IMG/VR virus record: IMGVR_UViG_3300042691_049331
Span: 1-29,364 of that record
Source of the DNA: a virus
Reading direction: 5' to 3' (one strand)
DNA: 29,364 nt
Below are positions 2,967 to 29,364 of the stretch, in pieces. Position numbers and translations under genes: made by a program. The notes under the pieces were generated by a model. That model made no database searches. It saw nothing but the letters and a program-made list of their open reading frames with translations, and was not told the DNA's origin. The number at the start of each line of letters is the position of its first letter. Positions within the stretch are counted from its first letter, which is position 1.

Positions 2967-4375
2967 TGCCAATAACAAAATTTACAGCATCGGCTGATAC
3001 TACAATAGTAAATGCTTATTATCCAAATAGTATTTCTAGAGCCTATCATGCAAATATTGGCGCAGCTGATTCGTTAGAAATGTTTTCTATTTATATAAGT
3101 GGATCTGAAACTCAAAAAGCAAGAATACTAATAAAGTTTCCTATTTCACAAATTTCCGCTAGTCGTGCAGCAGGCAGTATTCCTAGTTCTGGTAGCGTTA
3201 ACTTTATTTTTAAACTTTCAAACGTACAACACCCAGAAACTCTTTCTAAAAATTATTATGCTTCTATTCAGCCTATTTCTTCTTCGTGGGATGAAGGGTT
3301 TGGCCTTGATTTAGAAAATTATTCAGATAAAGGTCAGAGCGGTTCTATTGGTTATGGTGCAAACTGGGAGTTTCGATCCACGACGCCAGCTGGATCTGCA
3401 TGGTCTTCCCTAGGCGGCGATATTATCAGTGGATATGAAAAAACTTTTTATTTTGACAATGGCACAGAAGATTTATTAGTGGATATAACAAATATTGTCG
3501 AAGCGCAAATTTCCAACACAATACCAGATTATGGTCTTATGATAAAACTTTCTGGCTCGTACGAAAATGGAGTAAATACAAAAACTTATTATACAAAAAG
3601 ATTTTCCGCTAGAAGTTCAGAATATTTTTATAAAGTCCCAACAATTGAAGCGAGATGGAAATCAGTTGTAAACGATAACCGTGGAAACTTCTATTATTCT
3701 ACGGCAAATTTATCTGACGCAGATAACGAACAAAACATTTATTTTTATAATAGAGTTAATGGTATACTTAAAGATATCCCAAATAGTGCAATCCCTAAAG
3801 TCAATATTTACAACGAAGAAGATGTTTTTTTAACAGGTAGTATACAATCTACTAAGGTTTCTACCGGAATTTATAAAGCGGCTTTTAGTATAACTGGCAC
3901 GGTTGAGCAAAGCTTAAAAGACGTATGGTTTTCTGGCAGTAACCAATATTACACTGGATCGATACAAGCCTATACAAGAATTTTTGAAGATAGCGCTACT
4001 ATAAATGAATATATTTTTGCATTAACTAATCTAAAACAAACTTATAGTCAAATAGAGAAGCCTTCAATAAGAGTGTTTGGAAGAGCAAAAAATTGGTCAC
4101 CAAACGTCTATACAATTGCTAATAACAATATAGAAACAATAATTTTTAATAATTTATATTATAAAATTATAAGAATAGTTGATAATGAAACAATTGTAGA
4201 TTATGGTATAGATCCGATAGCATATACGTTGTGTTCATTTGACAGTAATGGTAATTATTTTGATTTTGATATGTCACTTTTGCAAGCAGGTTATGCATAT
4301 GGAATTAAATTAATGTTATTAAACGGTGATAACAAAATAGAATATAAAGACACATTTAGATTTAAGGTTGAATAA
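2966..4375 (+). CDS. Virion protein with DNRLRE-like beta-sandwich N-terminus
   Basis: 469 residues. The first 200 resemble the DNRLRE / CBM96-type beta sandwich: an opening ASADTTIVNAYYPN, a conserved strand ARILIKFPIS (about residues 48-57), and later SSSWDEGFG and a W in GANWEFR. The rest is beta-rich and ends in a strand FRFKVE. Proteins of this fold bind sugars or link surface proteins, so a wedge-attached adhesion or decoration role is possible, but that is inference. The ATG overlaps the stop of the gp6-like gene (TAATG at 2964) and its own stop overlaps the next start in the same way. The family assignment is by eye and only moderate. Confidence 0.75.
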   Translation: MPITKFTASADTTIVNAYYPNSISRAYHANIGAADSLEMFSIYISGSETQKARILIKFPISQISASRAAGSIPSSGSVNFIFKLSNVQHPETLSKNYYASIQPISSSWDEGFGLDLENYSDKGQSGSIGYGANWEFRSTTPAGSAWSSLGGDIISGYEKTFYFDNGTEDLLVDITNIVEAQISNTIPDYGLMIKLSGSYENGVNTKTYYTKRFSARSSEYFYKVPTIEARWKSVVNDNRGNFYYSTANLSDADNEQNIYFYNRVNGILKDIPNSAIPKVNIYNEEDVFLTGSIQSTKVSTGIYKAAFSITGTVEQSLKDVWFSGSNQYYTGSIQAYTRIFEDSATINEYIFALTNLKQTYSQIEKPSIRVFGRAKNWSPNVYTIANNNIETIIFNNLYYKIIRIVDNETIVDYGIDPIAYTLCSFDSNGNYFDFDMSLLQAGYAYGIKLMLLNGDNKIEYKDTFRFKVE

Positions 4376-6783
4376 TGGCTAGCACAATAGATATTTTTAA
4401 TTCAGCTAAAATAGATTTAACAAAATTAACTGGCAGTAACGATGTTTTTTCTTCAATATCAGAAATAACAGAATCTTCTAAATTACAAAAAAAATTCATT
4501 TCTGATGTTGATTATTCAAATCCTGAAAATTTTGCTAAATTTGGATTAGCGGAAGAATATTATAAGAATGCAATTAATTATATTGCAACGGAATATCCGT
4601 TTGATGGTTCAAAAAGTAAAAAATTTAAATGGATAAATGATTTAAATGAGCTTGAATACTATATTTTTAACAATGAATTTCCTAAATATGCTGGCTATAT
4701 AGAACTTTCCGGCACACAATATATAGGAGCTTTTTCTCCATCAAGAGACATAGATGAAACTGGCTCTCAAAATGTTTATATTAATGGTGAACGATATTTT
4801 GTTAGAGAAAATTTAAATTTTACAGATGGGTTTGCCTTTGAAAGTTGGATAAAATTTTCCAACACTACAAATACTTCATCTATTCTAACAATAAATACTG
4901 TTCAGTCATCTAGCGGCGGCGTTTCAGATAAAAACTTTTTACAAATATATGTCGATTCTGGAAAAATAAATCTTTCTGGCACAACAGCAACTTCTAATTT
5001 TGCTTACGATCTTTCAAATGATGTTTGGCATCATTATGCAATTTCTATAAATGAAAATAGTTCATCTTTATTTGTAGACGGCATTCTTCAAGAAAAAATC
5101 TTAACTAGTAATTTTAGTGATACCGCAGAAAAATATGTTTTTTATAAAATTGGGCTTGTTCCAATAAGTATTACATCAAGCTTTGGTTTAACTGGTAGTT
5201 ATTCTAAGATTCCAACATTTAAAATTGGTAGTGGTTCTATAATATCTTTTGATGAAACACGTTTTTGGAACAGCGAAAAAACTATTGAAAAAATAGGAAG
5301 AAATTGGTTTACTCAAATTCATGGTAATGATTTTAGCGACGACAATAATTCTAGTTTAATATTATATTATAAATTTAATGAAGGGTGGAATGTAAGCAGC
5401 TCTTATTGTTTAGATTATTCTGGATTTAGAAATCATGGTTATATTTACAATTTTAATGATTATAATTGTAGAAAAAGCGGATCAGCCATTAATTCATCTA
5501 GTTTAGTTCAAGATGTTGAAATCGAAAATCAAATATATGTTCCATCATTATCGTACTCTACAGATATTTTAGTTCCATTTTACGATGCAAAAGTTGAAAT
5601 TGGTAAAGAGTATGATACAAATAATTTACACTCACTGTATAAAAAATTTCCAAGTTGGGTTTTAGAACAAGAAGAAGAACAAGAAACAAAACATTTAAAA
5701 CAAATAATTCAAATAGTTTCCTCTTATTTTGATGATTTATATAATAAAATAGGTGAAATAAATAAATTAAAAAATATAAAATATTCTCAAAATTCTGATT
5801 CACTATATCCTTTTTATGACAAAATTTTAACATCTACAGGTTTTGATGTTACTGATCTTTTTTCTAATTTAAATATTTTAGAAAAAATTTCTTCAAGAAC
5901 AGAAACAAATATTTTTGATGAAGATATTTCTAAAATAAAAAATAGTATTTTTCAAAATATTTATAACAATTTAGCTTATATACTTAAATCTAAAGGCACT
6001 GAAAAATCTTTAAGAAGCTTTTTAAGAAGTTATGGTATAAGCGAAAACTTAGTTAGAATAAATCTTTATGCAGATAAATCGAACTATACTGTTTCAGACA
6101 AGTATTCAGAAACAATTGTTAAGAAAAAAACAATAACCCTAACTGGCAATCAAAATATATTTTTAAATGGTCCTTCTATTCCAAGCAGCAATACATATAC
6201 ACTTGAAACTAGTGTTATTTTTCCAAAAAATTTATTGCCAGAACAATATACGACTAGTTCAATAGCAGGAATTTATGTGACTAATAATTTGACCGATTAT
6301 ACGCCAGATTCTTCTAAAAATCAATTTTATTTATATGTAGAAAATGACGTAAATGGTCATAGATTTTGTTTTAGAACTGGTTCGTCTAAAGAACTAGCTG
6401 CTTCTTCTTCTTATTTTTATGATCTTTATGATAATACTGTTTGGAATTTTGCAATTGGTTTTTACCCTGACATAGAGACGCTAAATGGCGCTCCAACTAC
6501 TTATAATTTTAAAATAGATTTTAGAGCTGTAAATACAAATAAAGATAACCCACAGTATATTACAGGATCATTTAACGGACATTCATCGGCAGTTGCTAAT
6601 AATTCGGGCTATCAAAGATATTATATTGGAGCAGAAAAAACAAATATGAGTGGAAGTGTTATTAAAAATGCAAATGCAAAATATTTATATTGTAACTTCT
6701 GGCAAAAATATCTTTCAAACGACGAATTGATTTCTCATAATAGAGATATCTTAAGTTATGGAACACAATTTGAATCCGAATAG
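4375..6783 (+). CDS. Large virion protein with two LamG-like domains
   Basis: 802 residues. Residues about 150-345 look like a LamG / concanavalin A-like jelly roll: FAFESWIKF, then VWHHYAISINENSSSLFVDG, then FDETRFWN. A helical middle (about 405-560) has a charged segment rich in E and K, and KSKGTEKSLRSFLRSYGI (about 540-557), a motif I associate with phage tail proteins. A second jelly-roll-like region follows (about 595-790: YTLETSVIF, VWNFAIGFYPD, YYIGAEKT). LamG folds usually bind glycans, so a host-surface contact at the baseplate is plausible, though not shown. It starts at TAATG (4373-4377) and is 10 bases from the next gene. Confidence 0.8.
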   Translation: MASTIDIFNSAKIDLTKLTGSNDVFSSISEITESSKLQKKFISDVDYSNPENFAKFGLAEEYYKNAINYIATEYPFDGSKSKKFKWINDLNELEYYIFNNEFPKYAGYIELSGTQYIGAFSPSRDIDETGSQNVYINGERYFVRENLNFTDGFAFESWIKFSNTTNTSSILTINTVQSSSGGVSDKNFLQIYVDSGKINLSGTTATSNFAYDLSNDVWHHYAISINENSSSLFVDGILQEKILTSNFSDTAEKYVFYKIGLVPISITSSFGLTGSYSKIPTFKIGSGSIISFDETRFWNSEKTIEKIGRNWFTQIHGNDFSDDNNSSLILYYKFNEGWNVSSSYCLDYSGFRNHGYIYNFNDYNCRKSGSAINSSSLVQDVEIENQIYVPSLSYSTDILVPFYDAKVEIGKEYDTNNLHSLYKKFPSWVLEQEEEQETKHLKQIIQIVSSYFDDLYNKIGEINKLKNIKYSQNSDSLYPFYDKILTSTGFDVTDLFSNLNILEKISSRTETNIFDEDISKIKNSIFQNIYNNLAYILKSKGTEKSLRSFLRSYGISENLVRINLYADKSNYTVSDKYSETIVKKKTITLTGNQNIFLNGPSIPSSNTYTLETSVIFPKNLLPEQYTTSSIAGIYVTNNLTDYTPDSSKNQFYLYVENDVNGHRFCFRTGSSKELAASSSYFYDLYDNTVWNFAIGFYPDIETLNGAPTTYNFKIDFRAVNTNKDNPQYITGSFNGHSSAVANNSGYQRYYIGAEKTNMSGSVIKNANAKYLYCNFWQKYLSNDELISHNRDILSYGTQFESE

Positions 6784-6793
6784 GTAATAAAAT

Positions 6794-9700
6794 ATGTCAC
6801 TTAATAAAAATCTTTTAGTTTCTTGGAATTTTGATACCGTAACTGGTTCTGATGCAAACGGAACATTTACAGTAGATGATATTTCAAACGAATATTCTGG
6901 TGAATCTTCTGGGTTTACCTCTGATTCAACCTCTATGGTGTTGAAAGAGGATATAAAAACTGGAAAAAAACAAAGCTATGAAACTTTGGAAGGCATAGAT
7001 ACAATTCAATTAATTGAAAACGATGATGAAAGAATAACTGATTTAAAAAAACCAAGTTCAATTAAGTTAATGATTGAAAATAGTATGTATCAAGTTATTT
7101 CTGATGAAATGTTAAATCTTTTTGCTTCAATAAATGATTATGCTTTTAGATTTACAGTTCCTATAAATAAATATAAATCAGAATATGATAGTTTAATACA
7201 AGCAAGAAGAAATTTTTTTGAAAAAGTTCTTAGTAAACCAAACCTTGAAAAATATATAGAATTTTATAAATGGATTGATTCTTCACTCGGCGCGCTTATA
7301 GATCAGTTAAAACCAGAAAACTCTTTTGATTCTTCTGGACTAAAAACAACAGTTGAAAGTCACATTCTAGAAAGAAACAAATACCAATATCCTCTTCCTA
7401 TAACCATAGGGTCTAATTATGTTTTTAAAAACAATGATAGATCAATAACTATAATTAAAGGCGTCACTGGTTCCGCAGGCGTCTATACTAATTCTACAAA
7501 TACAACGAATCCAGAAGCGTTTTATATTTCAGATGAAATAAGCGCTTCTTCTGATCAGTTTACATCTTTAAATGTTGCATCTAGAAACTATCAAAAAAAT
7601 TATGAAATTATTCAAGGCGCAGGTAAATTTGTAAACAACAGGGGCGACAAAACAAACAAAACAATCCTTCAGACAAGGTTTAGCGCCGGGGATGGGTTAT
7701 CTGAATTAAATAAACATGACAATAGCAAAGAATTTTCTGTTTATAATACTCTAACAAATAGAGCGTATACACAAAGAGCAGATTATAATGCCTCTCAGAG
7801 CGTCACATTAGGTCGGCAAGGTTCTAATACAACCGCTACTACAACTTTATATAATGATTTTGCTGATAACGGATTTATTCAAAGAAATATACCATATACT
7901 TCAAGTAATTATGCATATTCTTCTAGCTTAACAAATTATCAAGCCATCCCGTCAAAAGAAATACAGGATAGGCAAAGAAACAATATAATAATTAAGGACG
8001 AAACAAACAATTTAACTGTTTATGAATCCCCAATACAATTCGGAGTACCAGCAAAACATAATTTATTAGTTAAAGATGCATTTGAAGAAATACAAATTTT
8101 TTCTCCATATGGAACAAAAATTTCTACTTTTTCTCCAAGAGTTCTAAAACAAACTGGCTCATTGGCGAAAGGGTTTCAACTTTATTTTAATAAGCCATTA
8201 GAAAATTTATCCGATGAAGATACTTTTTATAAAAAAATCAATAACGCAAATAGCGAAAGTTTACAAATTAACAGAATAGAAATATTAGATAACGTTTATC
8301 CTAGAAAAGATTTGATGGGTAGAGCGTTAACAAGAACAAAAACAAATTATGAAGAAAACGCTGGTACATATAACGTTAGCGCGTTTACATGGTCGCAAAA
8401 TAGTTATAACAACAATAGCTCACATATTAGAACTTTTTGGAAAAATAATATCGAGAGTCGCAAAAGAACACGCGGCGGTAATGCTGATTCTGGTTCGATA
8501 AACTGTTTAGGCGCTATAAACGTATCGTCATCCGACGATGAGCATTCTTACATAGAGCCTACACAGCTTTTTACATTTATGAATTCGGATAATTTTGGTT
8601 TTTATACATTTGGTCAAGTACACGTAACCGCTAGTGTTTCTCAAAACAAAAGCTATTATGATTCTTTGTATTTACTAGATGGCTCTTCTTCTTTTAATAT
8701 TTCTTCTCAATCTTATGGAATAGGTGTAGGGTTTAATAATTATGTACTAGGAGATTTAACTACCTTTCCTCACAACTTATGTGTAAATATTTTAAGTTCG
8801 TCCATTAATCATAAAGCAAAACCGCAATTTGCTTATAATAATTTTCCCGGCTATAACGCTTACAATGGCAATTATCAAGGCGGTGGCAGCAAAAAAAGAG
8901 CAATTATAAATATTGTATTTAATAAATCATATCAAGATTTTTCTGATGCAAATATCATTCCTTTTTATGATTCATATAATGATTTTTTTGTAGATATAAA
9001 AAAATATTATAAAAATTATTCAATAATTCCTGAATTTTGTGTAGGTAATTATAATGAAATCATAACGTTTCAAACAAGATCAATAAAAGAATATACAAAA
9101 ATTTTAGGTAGAGAAACTTTTAATGAAATTTTAAATTATGGAGACACTTTTACTGCTGATTTTAATAAATTTGTAGATAAAAAATCAAATAAAATAAAAA
9201 TTATATTTAATGGAGTAAAAAAACTATTACCCTATAATGGTTTTTATCCATCACAAAGAACAGTTCAGATTGTATCTGATTTTTCTGGAACTTATTTATC
9301 TGATCTTAGCGAAAGAGAGAAACAATACGCAATACAACCATTTTTTGCTCCCGGTATCTTATTTAATAGTATAAAAGCTGGTATTGCTGTAGATTTTCCA
9401 ATTGTAGTTGGAGAAAACTTAGCGGAAGATGATATATTAGGGGCCACAATTTTTTGGCAGTATAAATCAGCTTACAATTATGGAACAAATCAAGGTTCTA
9501 GAGCTGTTAGATATTTTTCCGAAAGATTGCCTTTTGAAGCCATTTTAGATCCTAAAAATTATTTATTTAACACTAACAATGATGCGAAAAATTATTATTA
9601 TTTAGACCCAACGCACTATAACTGGTTGTTTACAAGTGGTTCTGCTTTAGGTACTACACAAACCGTACCGTATGTTGAGCTTAAAAAAATTACTAATTCT

Positions 9701-11449
9701 TCAGCTCAAAAAACTGATTTTTATGAGCTTGCAATTAATAATTTTATTGCCGAAATCCCAAATTTTTTCTTAGAAAATTCTGAATTAACTAACTTTGTTT
9801 CCTTGCCGGATACACAATTTAATACTGTTTTGTCTGGCGCTGTCTATCAAATGAAAATTTCGATAGATAAAAATAGTAATTTTTCTTCTTTTAAAAAAAC
9901 AAATTATTCTTTAAGTGCTTCAAGTGGTTTTTGGTTTGATTCCTCAGAACAAACTCTTTATGGCCCAGTGGTGACTAATCTAAGTGCTTCAACTGGGTAT
10001 TATAATTTTGCTGTTTATGGCGATTCATATGCCCCTTTCACCCCAGCTTATTATAGATCTAATACAGTAAGCACTATTACCGAAAGTATAACAGTATTTG
10101 ATGGTTTTAAATTTGATACAGGTGTTCCAAGTTGGTTTGGTCCAGATTTTAGAACAATAACAAATAGTTCTAGTTTAGGATTTAATGAAATTAGATTAGA
10201 TTTTTGTCCAAATACAAATGGCATCCCTACGGTTGCTGATATTATTAGTAAAACAAAAATAATAACACCTTCTACGCATACAACTTCAAGCTATACAAAT
10301 CATAAGTGGGCAATGTCACTTCTTAGTTCATTGTTGGTTAACCAAAAAGTTTCCTCACCTTCTATTGCTAAAGATCCTATAACTGGCAAAATTATACAAA
10401 CAGTTGATGACACTTCAACGAATCGATTGGCTATTCAAACTAAGTTTGAGGTACCACTAATTGATTTTCAAGATACCATTGCTTCTAGTACTATTACGCC
10501 ATTTCAAACCCCAGTATTAAACTTTGACGACGCAGCATTACCTGAATATGGTTTTACTGCTGACGTAACAGCAAGTATTGTTGATTATCAGGGCATATGG
10601 AATTCTTACGGCACCATCCCAGAGGATGGTAAAAGCATTCAAATTAAAGTTAGCGATGATGGTGCAAGTAATTCACTAATGAATATTATAGGTCTTAAGC
10701 CGCAAAGCAAATCAATAGGAAAGATTGCAGATAAAAAAGTTATTTCAGAAGCAGTAGTTATTTTGCCATATCTTAATAAACAAGTGTCTAGGGTAAGAAG
10801 GCCATTTGGAATTAATTTATTAGATCCATTTCCACCAGAAGGATTTGTTACAAATAAAACAGAAAATAAATATTTGTTTAAAATTGAAGACGCTGTTATA
10901 AATAAGTTATTAAACGTGCCAAATTACAAAAACCTTTCTATAAAAGATATTAAATTAATTTTAGATACGGATACCAACATAAATAGAAGTAATTCTATTG
11001 TTGATTTAATGATTAAAATGGTAACATATAATATCCCACCGCATCTTAACTGGCTAGAAACGCCCGAAAAGAAACAACCATGCGTTATGTTTATAGGTGA
11101 ATTTACTCATGAATTAACAAAACAAGATCTAGCTGATATTTGGCAAGGAACTATGCCGAGTATTACTAAAAATTCTGAAGAGCAAAGCGTATCTTTGGAG
11201 TATTTTTTAGGTGAACAAGAATTATTTGGAAATTTAAATTTAAATGATTATGATATAAGTATGTCTGTTTTTAAGGCTAAAAAACGAGCAAATACAGATT
11301 ATAAGCAAATTACTCTAGACCCAAACGATGCAAACGAAAAAATCCCTTGGTATACTTACAATTGGCCTTATGATTATTTTTCGCTTGTAGAACTACTTAA
11401 TATACAAGCTGGAGAGGTTTACGAACCTATAGCATCTGGTAGTGTATAA
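6794..11449 (+). CDS. Very large (1551 aa) unrecognised virion protein
   Basis: The largest gene here. The N-terminus (LLVSWNFDTVTG...FTVDDIS) resembles the start of a LamG-type sandwich. Residues about 125-200 form a helical segment with FFEKVL, IEFYKWIDSSLG and ESHILERNKYQYP. The long middle is rich in N, S, Y and F and strongly beta. A C-terminal part has HELTKQDLADIWQGTMP (about 1439-1455). No enzyme motif is visible. Its place among wedge and fibre-type genes implies a major tail or baseplate component. It starts 10 bases after the previous stop with a weak GGTAA in front; its stop overlaps the next start (TAATG at 11447). Confidence 0.8.
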   Translation: MSLNKNLLVSWNFDTVTGSDANGTFTVDDISNEYSGESSGFTSDSTSMVLKEDIKTGKKQSYETLEGIDTIQLIENDDERITDLKKPSSIKLMIENSMYQVISDEMLNLFASINDYAFRFTVPINKYKSEYDSLIQARRNFFEKVLSKPNLEKYIEFYKWIDSSLGALIDQLKPENSFDSSGLKTTVESHILERNKYQYPLPITIGSNYVFKNNDRSITIIKGVTGSAGVYTNSTNTTNPEAFYISDEISASSDQFTSLNVASRNYQKNYEIIQGAGKFVNNRGDKTNKTILQTRFSAGDGLSELNKHDNSKEFSVYNTLTNRAYTQRADYNASQSVTLGRQGSNTTATTTLYNDFADNGFIQRNIPYTSSNYAYSSSLTNYQAIPSKEIQDRQRNNIIIKDETNNLTVYESPIQFGVPAKHNLLVKDAFEEIQIFSPYGTKISTFSPRVLKQTGSLAKGFQLYFNKPLENLSDEDTFYKKINNANSESLQINRIEILDNVYPRKDLMGRALTRTKTNYEENAGTYNVSAFTWSQNSYNNNSSHIRTFWKNNIESRKRTRGGNADSGSINCLGAINVSSSDDEHSYIEPTQLFTFMNSDNFGFYTFGQVHVTASVSQNKSYYDSLYLLDGSSSFNISSQSYGIGVGFNNYVLGDLTTFPHNLCVNILSSSINHKAKPQFAYNNFPGYNAYNGNYQGGGSKKRAIINIVFNKSYQDFSDANIIPFYDSYNDFFVDIKKYYKNYSIIPEFCVGNYNEIITFQTRSIKEYTKILGRETFNEILNYGDTFTADFNKFVDKKSNKIKIIFNGVKKLLPYNGFYPSQRTVQIVSDFSGTYLSDLSEREKQYAIQPFFAPGILFNSIKAGIAVDFPIVVGENLAEDDILGATIFWQYKSAYNYGTNQGSRAVRYFSERLPFEAILDPKNYLFNTNNDAKNYYYLDPTHYNWLFTSGSALGTTQTVPYVELKKITNSSAQKTDFYELAINNFIAEIPNFFLENSELTNFVSLPDTQFNTVLSGAVYQMKISIDKNSNFSSFKKTNYSLSASSGFWFDSSEQTLYGPVVTNLSASTGYYNFAVYGDSYAPFTPAYYRSNTVSTITESITVFDGFKFDTGVPSWFGPDFRTITNSSSLGFNEIRLDFCPNTNGIPTVADIISKTKIITPSTHTTSSYTNHKWAMSLLSSLLVNQKVSSPSIAKDPITGKIIQTVDDTSTNRLAIQTKFEVPLIDFQDTIASSTITPFQTPVLNFDDAALPEYGFTADVTASIVDYQGIWNSYGTIPEDGKSIQIKVSDDGASNSLMNIIGLKPQSKSIGKIADKKVISEAVVILPYLNKQVSRVRRPFGINLLDPFPPEGFVTNKTENKYLFKIEDAVINKLLNVPNYKNLSIKDIKLILDTDTNINRSNSIVDLMIKMVTYNIPPHLNWLETPEKKQPCVMFIGEFTHELTKQDLADIWQGTMPSITKNSEEQSVSLEYFLGEQELFGNLNLNDYDISMSVFKAKKRANTDYKQITLDPNDANEKIPWYTYNWPYDYFSLVELLNIQAGEVYEPIASGSV

Positions 11450-22561: not shown

Positions 22562-22607
22562 TTAGTTATAACATATTATAGGTCTTTTGACCGGGAGCAG
22601 TAAATTA

Positions 22608-24362
22608 ATGGCAAATCCATTAAAAATTTTAACAGCACTATCCGCATCATCCGGTGTGGCTGTATCAGGCAGTGGCGGTTTAATAGTTCAGCAAGATGGT
22701 ATTACAATAAGTAATGGTAATATTTCTGCTGCAAATTCACAAGTAACTGCAAGCGCTTTAAGCGCAAGCGGAACATCATTTCTAGGAACTGCAACAATTG
22801 ATAGCGCTACAGTCAAGGGCGGCAATATTGATAATACTGCGATTGGCACAACAACGCAATCAACTGGTAAATTTACAACAATCAGCGGCTCAAGTACGTT
22901 AGATGTTGGCGGGGCTGCGACATTTGCATCCACTGTAACATTAAACGGCGGCAATCTTTCACTAGCTAGTGGTTTTAAAGTAACCGGTAGTGGCGTTACG
23001 GTTGATGTTTCAACATTATCGGGTAGTTTAAGTGGTTCATATCTAGTCGCTAGCTCTGTTGCTAATGACAAATTAGCAAATTCATCATTAACGGTTACAG
23101 CAGGTGACGGTCTTACTGGTGGAGGCTCAGTATCACTAGGCGGATCTACTACACTAACTATCGGTGCCGGTACCCACATTACAGTAAACGCAAACGATGT
23201 TGAAGTTAATACAACAACATTAGTACCAGCAATTACTAGCTCAATCTTTGGTGGCGTTTCTGGCGATATCCTAATCAACGGAAGTGGCGTTGCAACAATC
23301 CAAGCAAATTCAGTTGCATTAGGTACTGATACAACTGGTAATTATGTTGGAGACGTAACCGCTGGGGCTGGTTTAAAGAAAACTTCAACAGCTGGTGAAG
23401 GCCAAACAGTTGATTTATCGATTGAAGCTGGCACTGGTATTAGTGTTACTGCTGATGGCGTTTCGGTTACAACTGGCTCGACTGCCCTTAGCAATGGCGA
23501 TGTGTTAAAGTGGGATGGATCTGCTTTTGCTAAGTCAAAGATGACCGAAACCGCTGGTGGCATTTTCATTGACGGTAACTTAGAAGTTAGTGGTTATGTA
23601 ACCGGTACAGTTGTTCGTATTGATACAACAAATGCAGTTGTAGCAGATCAATTCGTATATCTAAACAGCGGCAGTGCCGGTATTACAACCTCTGAAGGCG
23701 GTATTAAGATTGGCGTTTCTGGTTCTGGTGGAACAAAAGAGGGCCAACTTTCATACGTTAGTGGTTCTGGCTGGAAAGTAACAGATGGAAGCACAACTGG
23801 AGCACAAAGCAATACTTCGCTAACAGCTTTAGCTGATTTTACCGCCAAGACGCTAAACTTTAGTGCAAGTTCTAATAGCCCAGCAATGTTTTATACCGCT
23901 GGTATAAACAGCGTTCAAACTGTTTTAGATACTATTGCGAACGGCCTTGGCAGCACTGTACAAGGTCCACAATACTACAACCTTAGAAGTAGCGCGTATG
24001 CTACAAAAGGAGCTGGATCAACTGTAACATTCTTTTTAAGCAGCTCTATTGGAAACGTATCAGATAGAAGTGGCGATAGAGCAAATCAAAATACCGCAAA
24101 CGCTACCGCCCCAGCTATTCAAGGCTTATCAGATGGAGACGTAAATGTGGTTATTTCACGCCTAGCTAATGTTTCATTTGATGTTGCAGTTAAAGCTGAT
24201 GGCACAACCAGCTGGACAAACGATCTTTGCTCAGTTTATGCATCGGCATCGCTAGGTGCAGGCGGCGATTATTATCCTTATATTACAATTGAATGTCCCG
24301 GGTTGGCAGCAGGTTCGTTAGTAAGATTAATTGCAGTTCAAGAAGATTATAACCAACTATAA
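22608..24362 (+). CDS. Tail-fibre-like protein (584 aa)
   Basis: I start at the ATG at 22608, 10 bases after GGGAG, not at an in-frame TTG seven codons earlier. The N-terminus MANPLKILTALSASS is followed by fibre-type repeats: NISAANSQVTASALSASG, IDSATVKGGNIDNTAIGTTT, GKFTTISGSSTLDVGG. Then come two shaft-like segments, DGLTGGGSVSLGG...GAGTHITV and AGAGLKKT...AGTGISVTADGVSV. The last 59 residues (VKADGTTSWTNDL to LIAVQEDYNQL) match the end of the fibre-like gene at 24882 and may be a tip or trimerisation domain. G+C is clearly higher than in the preceding structural genes, which fits a highly expressed or separately acquired fibre. It ends before a strong terminator. Confidence 0.82.
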   Translation: MANPLKILTALSASSGVAVSGSGGLIVQQDGITISNGNISAANSQVTASALSASGTSFLGTATIDSATVKGGNIDNTAIGTTTQSTGKFTTISGSSTLDVGGAATFASTVTLNGGNLSLASGFKVTGSGVTVDVSTLSGSLSGSYLVASSVANDKLANSSLTVTAGDGLTGGGSVSLGGSTTLTIGAGTHITVNANDVEVNTTTLVPAITSSIFGGVSGDILINGSGVATIQANSVALGTDTTGNYVGDVTAGAGLKKTSTAGEGQTVDLSIEAGTGISVTADGVSVTTGSTALSNGDVLKWDGSAFAKSKMTETAGGIFIDGNLEVSGYVTGTVVRIDTTNAVVADQFVYLNSGSAGITTSEGGIKIGVSGSGGTKEGQLSYVSGSGWKVTDGSTTGAQSNTSLTALADFTAKTLNFSASSNSPAMFYTAGINSVQTVLDTIANGLGSTVQGPQYYNLRSSAYATKGAGSTVTFFLSSSIGNVSDRSGDRANQNTANATAPAIQGLSDGDVNVVISRLANVSFDVAVKADGTTSWTNDLCSVYASASLGAGGDYYPYITIECPGLAAGSLVRLIAVQEDYNQL

Positions 24363-24881: not shown

Positions 24882-25607
24882 ATGGCAGTAAAGCCCGTAA
24901 AAGTTCTTACTGATTTACAAACTAAAAAACAATTATTAAAGTTAGATGCTAATAATAATGTTCTTTTTAGAGTAAGCGGTAGCTTAGGCGATGGTGTTGT
25001 ATTAATAGATGTGCCAGTAACTGCCTCGCAAGGCATTACTGCTAGATTATATGGTACCGCTTCATATGCTTTAAATGCGGCTACTGCTTCCTATGCCGAA
25101 AATGCTGGCAGTGCATTAACTTCTGTTTATACAACCGGCAGTGTTACTGGTAGCGGTTTACAAGCAAATCCAATAACTCTAACCGATCCATTAATTATTG
25201 GAACAATTACTTCGTCATTTATATATTCACCACAAATTACCGGTTCGCTTTATGGTACTGCTTCTTATGCTGAAAACGCTGGTAATATTAACACAGCAAA
25301 TATTCAAAATGCGTATAAAAGATTGCGTTTTCAAGAAGTGGGTTTTTTTGATATAAATGGTGAAGCATCTATTGAGCTTCCAAGTTCTTCTTATGGAGGC
25401 GATGCTTTTCCTATTACTTCTTTTAATTATGTCAACGTAAGCGTTGACATAAAAGAAGATGGAAGATGGATCAATGATATGCTAGCAGTTCAAATGTTAA
25501 CATCAAGCGGTAAGATAATTGTTGAAATTTCGGCACCGGCATTAACAAATACTGATCAGTATAAATTAATTGCTTTAAATGAAGACCCAAATTATTTTAT
25601 AATATAG
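24882..25607 (+). CDS. Short tail-fibre-like protein with GTASYA repeats
   Basis: 241 residues. After an N-terminal strand region (AVKPVKVLTDLQTKKQLLKL) come LYGTASYALNAATASYAENA (about 57-76) and a second LYGTASYAENAG (123-134), a repeat type common in phage fibres and likely forming a trimeric shaft. The last 56 residues (VSVDIKEDGRWINDM to LIALNEDPN) align with the tip of the larger fibre at 22608. It sits after the two small helical genes and only 2 bases before the ruvC-like gene, so structural and recombination genes may share a transcript here. An 11-bp inverted repeat lies within the gene. Confidence 0.8.
   Translation: MAVKPVKVLTDLQTKKQLLKLDANNNVLFRVSGSLGDGVVLIDVPVTASQGITARLYGTASYALNAATASYAENAGSALTSVYTTGSVTGSGLQANPITLTDPLIIGTITSSFIYSPQITGSLYGTASYAENAGNINTANIQNAYKRLRFQEVGFFDINGEASIELPSSSYGGDAFPITSFNYVNVSVDIKEDGRWINDMLAVQMLTSSGKIIVEISAPALTNTDQYKLIALNEDPNYFII
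25427..25452 (+). repeat. Inverted repeat inside fibre gene
   Basis: TTATGTCAACG (25427-25437) and CGTTGACATAA (25442-25452) form a perfect 11-bp stem with a TAAG loop. After a 4-base bulge six more pairs can form (25417-25422 with 25453-25458). There is no T-run, so it is not a typical terminator. Confidence 0.6.
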
Positions 25608-27438: not shown

Positions 27439-27470
27439 TAGCCCTGCAATCGCGGGGCTAAATTATTTTT
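27438..27470 (+). terminator. Hairpin with T-run before SbcD-SbcC gene
   Basis: TTAGCCCTGC (27438-27447) pairs with GCGGGGCTAA (27452-27461) around an AATC loop, with one T-G pair; ATTATTTTT follows. It looks like a rho-independent terminator for the upstream genes, with an imperfect T-run. Because it overlaps the start region of the promoter at 27410 it could instead be a 5' leader hairpin or attenuator. Confidence 0.6.
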
Positions 27471-27479
27471 GAGGTACGC

Positions 27480-29364
27480 ATGCCAAAGATCGCGCACATA
27501 AGTGACACACACATAAAAACGCTAAAGCAACACGATGAGTACAAGCAAGTTTTTGAACAAATTTATGCTAGGCTGCAAACAGAAAAAGTAGATTACATTG
27601 TTCACACGGGCGACATCGCGCACACTAAAACACAAATTAGCCCTGAATTTGTTGATGTTTGTGGACAATTTTTTACTAAATTAGCAGCAATCGCACCGCT
27701 ACACATTATTTTAGGAAATCACGATGGAAATCTTCGCAATAGTAATCGCCAAGATGCTATTTCGCCAATCGTCACAGCGCTAAACAATCCAAACATAACG
27801 CTTTACAAGAACAGCGGCGAGTATGTAATAAACGATAACTTAACTTTTAACGTTCTTAGCATTTTTGATAAAGAGGGCTGGGTGAAACCAAGCTCACAAG
27901 AGCGCATAAACATCGCACTTTATCATGGTTCTATCAACGGCGTTATGACAGACACCGGTTATGTTATTGAACATGGTGACGATGTTATCGACATCTTTGA
28001 TGGACACGATTATGCGCTACTTGGTGACATCCATCTTGCTAACCAGATCGTAGATCCCGATGGGCGGATGCGTTATGCGGGCAGCACAATCCAACAAAAC
28101 TTCGGTGAAACCAACGATAAAGGTTTTTTGATCTGGGACATCCGCAGTAAAGATGATTTTAGCGTTGAGCATGTTCGCATCCCTAACCCACGACCATTTA
28201 TCAGCATCGAACTAGGGCTTGATGGTGAGATCGGTGATGCCATTTGGGCACCAAAGGGTGCGCGCATCCGTCTTATCGCACGCAATAATTTATCTGTGGA
28301 TAAAGTCAAGAACGCTATTGACGCCGCAAAGACACGCTTCAAGCCAGAGAGTGTCACATTTGTCAATAAAGCCCTAGACACAAAAGAAAATCTACAGGAA
28401 GTTTCACGACTTTCGCAAACTCTTAATTTACGAGATCTTTCTATTCAAGAAGAACTTATCTCTAGCTACCTAAAAGATTATAAACCAGACAATGAAACAC
28501 TAGAAAAAATTTATGATATGAACCGGCGTTTCTCTTCGCAAGTAGAACAAGGCGAAGAAGTGGCGCGCAATGTTAATTGGAAGATTAAATCACTTGAATG
28601 GGACAATCTTTTTAACTATGGCGAAGGCAATAAATTAAACTTTGAAAAACTGAATGGGGTTGTTGGTATTTTTGGTAAAAACTACACCGGCAAATCGTCA
28701 GTAATTGATTCTTTGCTTTACACAGTATTCAACACTACATCTAAAAACAATCGCAAGAATCTAAACATCATCAATCAAAATTGCGACAAAGGTCGCGGCA
28801 AGATCCTATTTGATATAGACGGCGATGAATATGTTATTGAGCGCACAAGCGAAAAATATACAAAAAAAAGCAAAGGCGTTGAAACCGTAGAGGCCAAAAC
28901 AGATGTTGTATTCTCAGCGCAAGACGAAGAACTTCTTAATGGTTTGGACCGTAGTGATACTGATAAAGGTATCCGTAGATTTGTTGGCACAATTGATGAC
29001 TTCCTTTTAACTTCAATGTCAAGCCAACTAAATTCTCTTGCTTTTATTGGCGAAGGCTCAACACAACGCAAGGCAATACTTGCTAAATTTCTTGATCTAG
29101 ACATGTTTGAACTTAAATTTAAACTTGCTAAGAGTGAGGCGGCTGAAATAAAAGCCGTTCTAAAGAAGCTAGAAGGTACAGATTTTGATGCGCAAATTGC
29201 TGCTGCCAAAGCAGCTATCGCTACTAATGAAAAAAGTATTTCTGATGCCAAGAGTGAAACAGCGCTTTCGCAAGAAGAACTTAAAAAACTTCAGGAAGAA
29301 CTACTAGAAGTTTCCTCGTTCCTACGCAACATCAAAAAAGAACAAGGTAGCTTATCTGATGTTT
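27480..29364 (+). CDS. Fused SbcD-SbcC (Mre11-Rad50, T4 gp47-gp46) protein, 3' end outside window
   Basis: A frame of 628 codons, open to the window edge, begins at an ATG 5 bases after GAGGT. Residues 1-340 are a calcineurin-like nuclease of the SbcD/Mre11 type: D9-T-H11, G44-D45 with H48, G79-N80-H81-D82, H149 in LYHGS, and G182-D-I-H185 where the family usually has GHxH; then QQNFGE (205-210). Without a stop, residues from about 366 are the SbcC/Rad50 head: WKIKSLEWDNLFNYGEG, Walker A GKNYTGKS (399-406), and Q516 in MSSQLNSL as the Q-loop. From about 545 the helix rich in K, E and A is the start of the coiled coil. In T4 these are two genes, 47 and 46. The product would process DNA ends for recombination. 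I checked every codon across the join and found no stop or shift. Confidence 0.88.
   Translation, partial: MPKIAHISDTHIKTLKQHDEYKQVFEQIYARLQTEKVDYIVHTGDIAHTKTQISPEFVDVCGQFFTKLAAIAPLHIILGNHDGNLRNSNRQDAISPIVTALNNPNITLYKNSGEYVINDNLTFNVLSIFDKEGWVKPSSQERINIALYHGSINGVMTDTGYVIEHGDDVIDIFDGHDYALLGDIHLANQIVDPDGRMRYAGSTIQQNFGETNDKGFLIWDIRSKDDFSVEHVRIPNPRPFISIELGLDGEIGDAIWAPKGARIRLIARNNLSVDKVKNAIDAAKTRFKPESVTFVNKALDTKENLQEVSRLSQTLNLRDLSIQEELISSYLKDYKPDNETLEKIYDMNRRFSSQVEQGEEVARNVNWKIKSLEWDNLFNYGEGNKLNFEKLNGVVGIFGKNYTGKSSVIDSLLYTVFNTTSKNNRKNLNIINQNCDKGRGKILFDIDGDEYVIERTSEKYTKKSKGVETVEAKTDVVFSAQDEELLNGLDRSDTDKGIRRFVGTIDDFLLTSMSSQLNSLAFIGEGSTQRKAILAKFLDLDMFELKFKLAKSEAAEIKAVLKKLEGTDFDAQIAAAKAAIATNEKSISDAKSETALSQEELKKLQEELLEVSSFLRNIKKEQGSLSDV

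Follow-up and report, generated by a model that had tools for sequence, protein, structure and literature searches.

Description of the locus

The window, the whole 29,364-base stretch analysed here, is a complete virus contig record (IMG/VR IMGVR_UViG_3300042691_049331). Its last gene is the 5' part of an sbcDC fusion gene (27480..29364, plus strand), cut by the contig end. The single frame (27480-29363) has 628 codons, contains no stop and is open at the window end; a full length of about 1,045 aa is expected from relatives. A GAGG ribosome-binding site, read from the sequence, lies 5 nt upstream of the ATG (27471..27474, plus strand), and is also kept in four relatives (L001, L002, L003 and L009). 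At 27440-27470, between a 118-aa gene and the fused gene, an inverted repeat (AGCCC...GGGCT) precedes an A/T-rich tract. Together they resemble an intrinsic terminator, and relatives have a GGGCC-ATTTTATTT stretch at the corresponding place. Upstream of the fused gene are a RuvC-like (Holliday-resolvase-like) gene and a primase gene, both recognised with PHROGs. Low-complexity proteins rich in Ser, Gly and Thr, with segments such as SGSLYGTASYAENAG, are encoded at 22587-24362 and 24882-25607; they have no PHROG match and are probably virion appendage proteins. An ORF of 1,551 aa without Pfam match is located at 6794-11449, downstream of baseplate genes.

The window protein carries Mre11 and Rad50 domains in one chain, Mre11 first, as do its relatives. 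Pfam assigns Metallophos to residues 3-185 (E 3.5e-14) and AAA_23 to residues 373-610 (E 4.3e-11). PHROGs assign the SbcD-like phrog_100 to residues 1-342 (E 8e-35) and the SbcC-like phrog_77 to residues 210-620 (E 5e-23). The two collections agree with the preliminary description, which read one uninterrupted frame of SbcD/Mre11 followed by the N-terminal head of SbcC/Rad50. Motifs of the SbcD part are SDTH, GDIAH, GNHD, YHG, GDIH and QQNFGE (205-210). In the SbcC part, GKNYTGKSS forms Walker A and QLNS the Q-loop. About 155 residues lie between QQNFGE and the first strand of Rad50, in agreement with the preliminary description. The further claim that all SbcD motifs are present holds nearly, the last histidine pair being GDIH and not GHIH.

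Domain organisation

The structure of the full-length protein of the nearest relative, L001 (1,044 aa; 88% identity over residues 1-628), was predicted with 68 sequences. Mean pLDDT is 81.5. A single chain was modelled, and at a pTM of 0.47 the placement of the nuclease relative to the head is unreliable. The following parts are all on the plus strand. SbcD/Mre11 phosphoesterase and capping domain, residues 1-296 (27480..28367), are recognised by Pfam Metallophos and the L001 model; residues 1-297 of the model align to solved Mre11/SbcD nuclease-capping cores with Z of about 24. A partly disordered tether, residues 297-319 (28368..28436; pLDDT below 50 at 297-312), leads from the capping domain to the docking helices. 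A helix-loop-helix, residues 320-358 (28437..28553), occupies the place that the Rad50-docking domain takes in Mre11; the helices are predicted at 320-334 and 338-358 with pLDDT of 84-93, and the docking role is assigned by position. A loop of about 7 residues, 359-365 (28554..28574; secondary structure of the model), connects SbcD to SbcC. The N-terminal ATPase lobe of SbcC/Rad50, with Walker A (GKNYTGKSS) and Q-loop, occupies residues 366-541 (28575..29102; AAA_23). Positions 29103..29364 hold the start of the Rad50 coiled coil, which the model shows as helices from residue 542 onwards. In L001, head and coiled coil together (365-1044) align to solved Rad50/SbcC heads with Z of 26-30.

A linker at residues 340-365 had been proposed to take the place of the docking helices. 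This is not supported: a helix-loop-helix is predicted at 320-358, and between it and Rad50 strand 1 there is room for no more than about 7 residues (359-365). The model therefore places the junction between the docking domain of SbcD and the opening strand of SbcC. The same layout was described for other fusions, with the C-terminus of Mre11 about 28 Å from the N-terminus of Rad50 (Yoshida et al. 2011, PMC3175470).

The C-terminal lobe is missing from the window because the window ends; hook, signature, Walker B, D-loop and H-loop all fall past its end. The lobe was looked for in the complete ORFs of relatives and is present there, with signature SGAEK, Walker B ILDEP, D-loop LD and a conserved SHLD (H-loop H1019). 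The ATPase set of SbcC/Rad50 consists of the N lobe in the window and the C lobe, invariant in relatives, with the coiled coil between. By analogy with the relatives, of which the nearest is 88% identical over residues 1-628, the window's own gene copy would encode a complete C-terminal lobe.

Catalytic motifs

D9, H11, G44-D45, GNHD 79-82, H149 and H185 are invariant in 68 aligned rows. Asp183 replaces the first His of HxH (GDIH) in all 68. GDIH is also found in Microcystis phage Mel-JY01, L083, L084 and Tenacibaculum phage PTm1; GHxH is found in T4-type gp47 proteins and in Sphingomonas phage PAU. Mimivirus R555 has the same change of His to Asp, at the equivalent of Mre11 His206, together with a GDxxH motif II (PMC3175470). 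In L083 (LR756508.1, a 484-kb phage) the SbcDC gene at 3944-8169 is split between GDIH and QQNHGE by an ORF of 305 aa. The insert has Cys-rich segments and looks like an insertion of the homing-endonuclease type; a group I intron was considered and rejected, no Rfam match being obtained at the gathering threshold.

Relatives and integrity of the fused frame

IMG/VR was scanned with the window protein; 450 stretches encode a relative, and the best 80 of these were analysed. SbcD (GNHD) and the Rad50 N-lobe share one frame in all of these best 80 of 450. Complete ORFs of 1,043-1,089 codons (about 1,045 aa) are present in 78 of the 80, and the other two end at contig ends. Between the window and L001, synonymous sites are near saturation; dN/dS is 0.014 at residues 301-366 (helix-loop-helix and linker), which indicates strong purifying selection, 0.035 in the ATPase N-lobe, and 0.19 in the looser coiled coil. 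Nine relatives are 155-204 kb long (contigs, which may be incomplete genomes). Each has a single match to phrog_100 and a single match to phrog_77, both inside the fused ORF; profile matches place no separate sbcC or sbcD beside it.

The preliminary description allowed for a lost stop or frameshift near 28400-28580. Two separate genes joined by an error of sequencing or assembly (near 28380-28580) would be in line with the separate genes of T4, cyanophage S-SSM7 and Caulobacter phage Cr30, and the window is a metagenomic contig. Against such a join, the same junction is fused and read through in frame in 80/80 independently assembled relatives (best 80 of 450), the junction is under strong purifying selection, and cultured phages carry the same arrangement, annotated as single genes. 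An error at the junction is ruled out by the 80 fused relatives and can be given practically no weight. The SbcD-SbcC fusion is genuine: it is conserved in every relative analysed, its junction is under purifying selection, and in the nine large relatives it holds the only SbcD and SbcC matches.

An internal start in the fused frame could also yield free SbcC, hence two products. ATG, GTG and TTG codons are scattered in the junction, for example at residue 347 in 19/78 relatives, two of these with an SD-like site. The commonest position of a junction start codon, however, reaches only 27/78, and SD-like sites at any one position do not exceed 6/78, against the clear GAGG at the true start. No conserved SbcC start codon with a ribosome site is present among the 78 relatives, and a second product is very unlikely. 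The fused chain may be cleaved post-translationally, which counts against the single-chain reading.

A scan of genome contigs for the fusion gave only four stretches, in three MAGs. Two (L090 and L091) lie at distant scaffold sites of a WOR-3 MAG (CP070664.1), each abutting runs of N, and are probably misplaced phage contigs in a scaffolded MAG chromosome. One other MAG contig and the IMG/VR contig L046 are both 24,260 bases long. Because N runs abut the WOR-3 stretches and the 24,260-base length matches that of L046, the MAG stretches look like binned phage sequence, and on this one scan a spread of the fusion through bacteria was rejected.

Comparison with known fusions and with separate SbcC and SbcD

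Mre11-Rad50 fusions were described in 2011 from Mimivirus (R555), Bacillus phage 0305phi8-36, plasmids, bacteria and eukaryotes (Yoshida, Claverie and Ogata, PMC3175470). In aquatic metagenomes the homologues of R555 are abundant; viral size fractions are enriched in them, and their scaffolds also carry phage primases (PMC3175470). The window gene is a well-supported case of this published SbcDC fusion type, and the arrangement is already known. The question of how widespread such fusions are, raised by the preliminary description, is answered by that publication and by the 450 IMG/VR stretches with a relative, of which all 80 analysed are fused.

R555 (by its published description) and its aquatic homologues share with these proteins the order of Mre11 then Rad50, the retained docking helix-loop-helix and a short linker. 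Also shared with the R555 type are GDxxH motif II, Asp at the equivalent of Mre11 His206, aquatic virus origin and a phage primase on the same scaffolds. R555 differs in its length (1,351 aa, against about 1,045 aa in these phage proteins) and in its longer coiled coil. A structural search of viral proteins placed giant-virus fusions (Tupanvirus, Harvfovirus, Yasminevirus, Catovirus) and Tenacibaculum phages at the top; identity to the Tupanvirus fusion in that search is 22%.

Cultured phages with one SbcD-then-SbcC gene are Microcystis phage Mel-JY01 (WWT39521.1), Tenacibaculum phages PTm1 and pT24, Sphingomonas phage PAU (gp288) and Chryseobacterium phage MA9V-1. Their genes are annotated as metallo-phosphoesterase, DNA repair exonuclease or AAA-domain protein. 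Mel-JY01 is 33% identical over 90% of the window fragment, with a primase gene just upstream. The PTm1 and PAU fusions are longer proteins of about 1,300 aa. MT836500 (L087) encodes a normal unfused SbcC. T4 gp47/gp46 and E. coli SbcD/SbcC have the same domains, catalytic motifs and expected reaction, but are encoded by two genes. T4-type proteins further differ in GHxH in gp47 instead of GDIH, and have a CPTC hook in gp46.

Coiled-coil apex

The apex lies beyond the window and was read in relatives. In 72/78 it is PCG-x4-5-C-K-F-I-x-D-A, that is C-x6-7-C with no CxxC (in L001 near residues 717-731, PCG...CKFIKDA). In the remaining 6/78 it is HEYDPDC-x-Y-C, with CxxC. Two apex Cys are retained in all 78. 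CxxC is a highly conserved zinc-hook motif (PMC9569753). It is present in L083, L084, T4, S-SSM7 and Cr30, and, in contrast to the 72 relatives, in the fusions of Mel-JY01, PTm1 and PAU. A limited literature search found no published description of a C-x6-7-C hook.

The occurrence of CxxC in the 6/78 and in the outgroup phages Mel-JY01, PTm1, PAU and T4 suggests a switch inside the family. A redesigned apex in the main clade is tentatively proposed and is rather doubtful: C-x6-7-C would replace the CxxC hook, and the contact between two chains would be a zinc site of other geometry, or would be made by something else than zinc. The apex variant is the least ordinary detail of the family.

Genomic context and proposed function

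The primase gene found upstream of the fused gene in the window also stands upstream of it in Mel-JY01, and adjoins the SbcDC gene in L083. A RecA-family gene is present in 8/9 large relatives (155-204 kb); G001, the 162-kb contig of L001, has no RecA-family match, unlike the eight others. What the window holds is very probably the first 60%, from the 5' end, of a phage sbcDC gene for a single-chain Mre11-Rad50 enzyme, most likely acting like T4 gp46/gp47. By that analogy, its function is most likely DNA-end processing for recombination and for replication and repair.

In the predicted fold, the chain runs from nuclease and capping domain through a flexible tether, the docking helix-loop-helix and a short loop to the Rad50 ATPase, whose two lobes are separated by about 350 residues of antiparallel coiled coil. 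For the quaternary structure, activity and role of the protein we infer the following. Pairing of two chains would rest on the Mre11 dimer and on the ATP-bound heads, probably also on the apex of the coiled coil. The pairing would give an M2R2 assembly, as with separate SbcC and SbcD, with the 1:1 stoichiometry built in. SbcCD enzymes are ATP-dependent nucleases that act on DNA ends and hairpins. The fused enzyme would bind DNA ends, and ATP hydrolysis would open the nuclease for resection or nicking. The resulting 3' single strands may feed the phage RecA/UvsX recombinase in recombination-dependent replication and repair. No biochemical work on these phage fusion proteins was found in the literature.

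The fusion may instead have left DNA-end repair and act as a specialised nuclease, for example in degradation of host DNA or in defence against competing phages. Most cellular fusions occur alongside a normal SbcCD, and their role may be a different one (PMC3175470); the GDIH change, at a metal-site position, is invariant in this family. The fused ORF is, however, the only SbcCD in the nine large relatives, and beside it in the window stand a primase gene and a resolvase-like one. This role is considered improbable. It does not strictly exclude the other, as T4 gp46/47 itself takes part in degradation of host DNA, according to its annotation.

The relatives give complete full-length sequences and a genome context that are absent from the metagenomic fragments of 2011. 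One lineage of large aquatic phages carries the single-chain Mre11-Rad50 design as a stable and common feature. For structural work on SbcCD, a single polypeptide whose coiled coil is short could serve well. In the altered hook, nature offers a variant on which the requirements of the CxxC hook can be tested.
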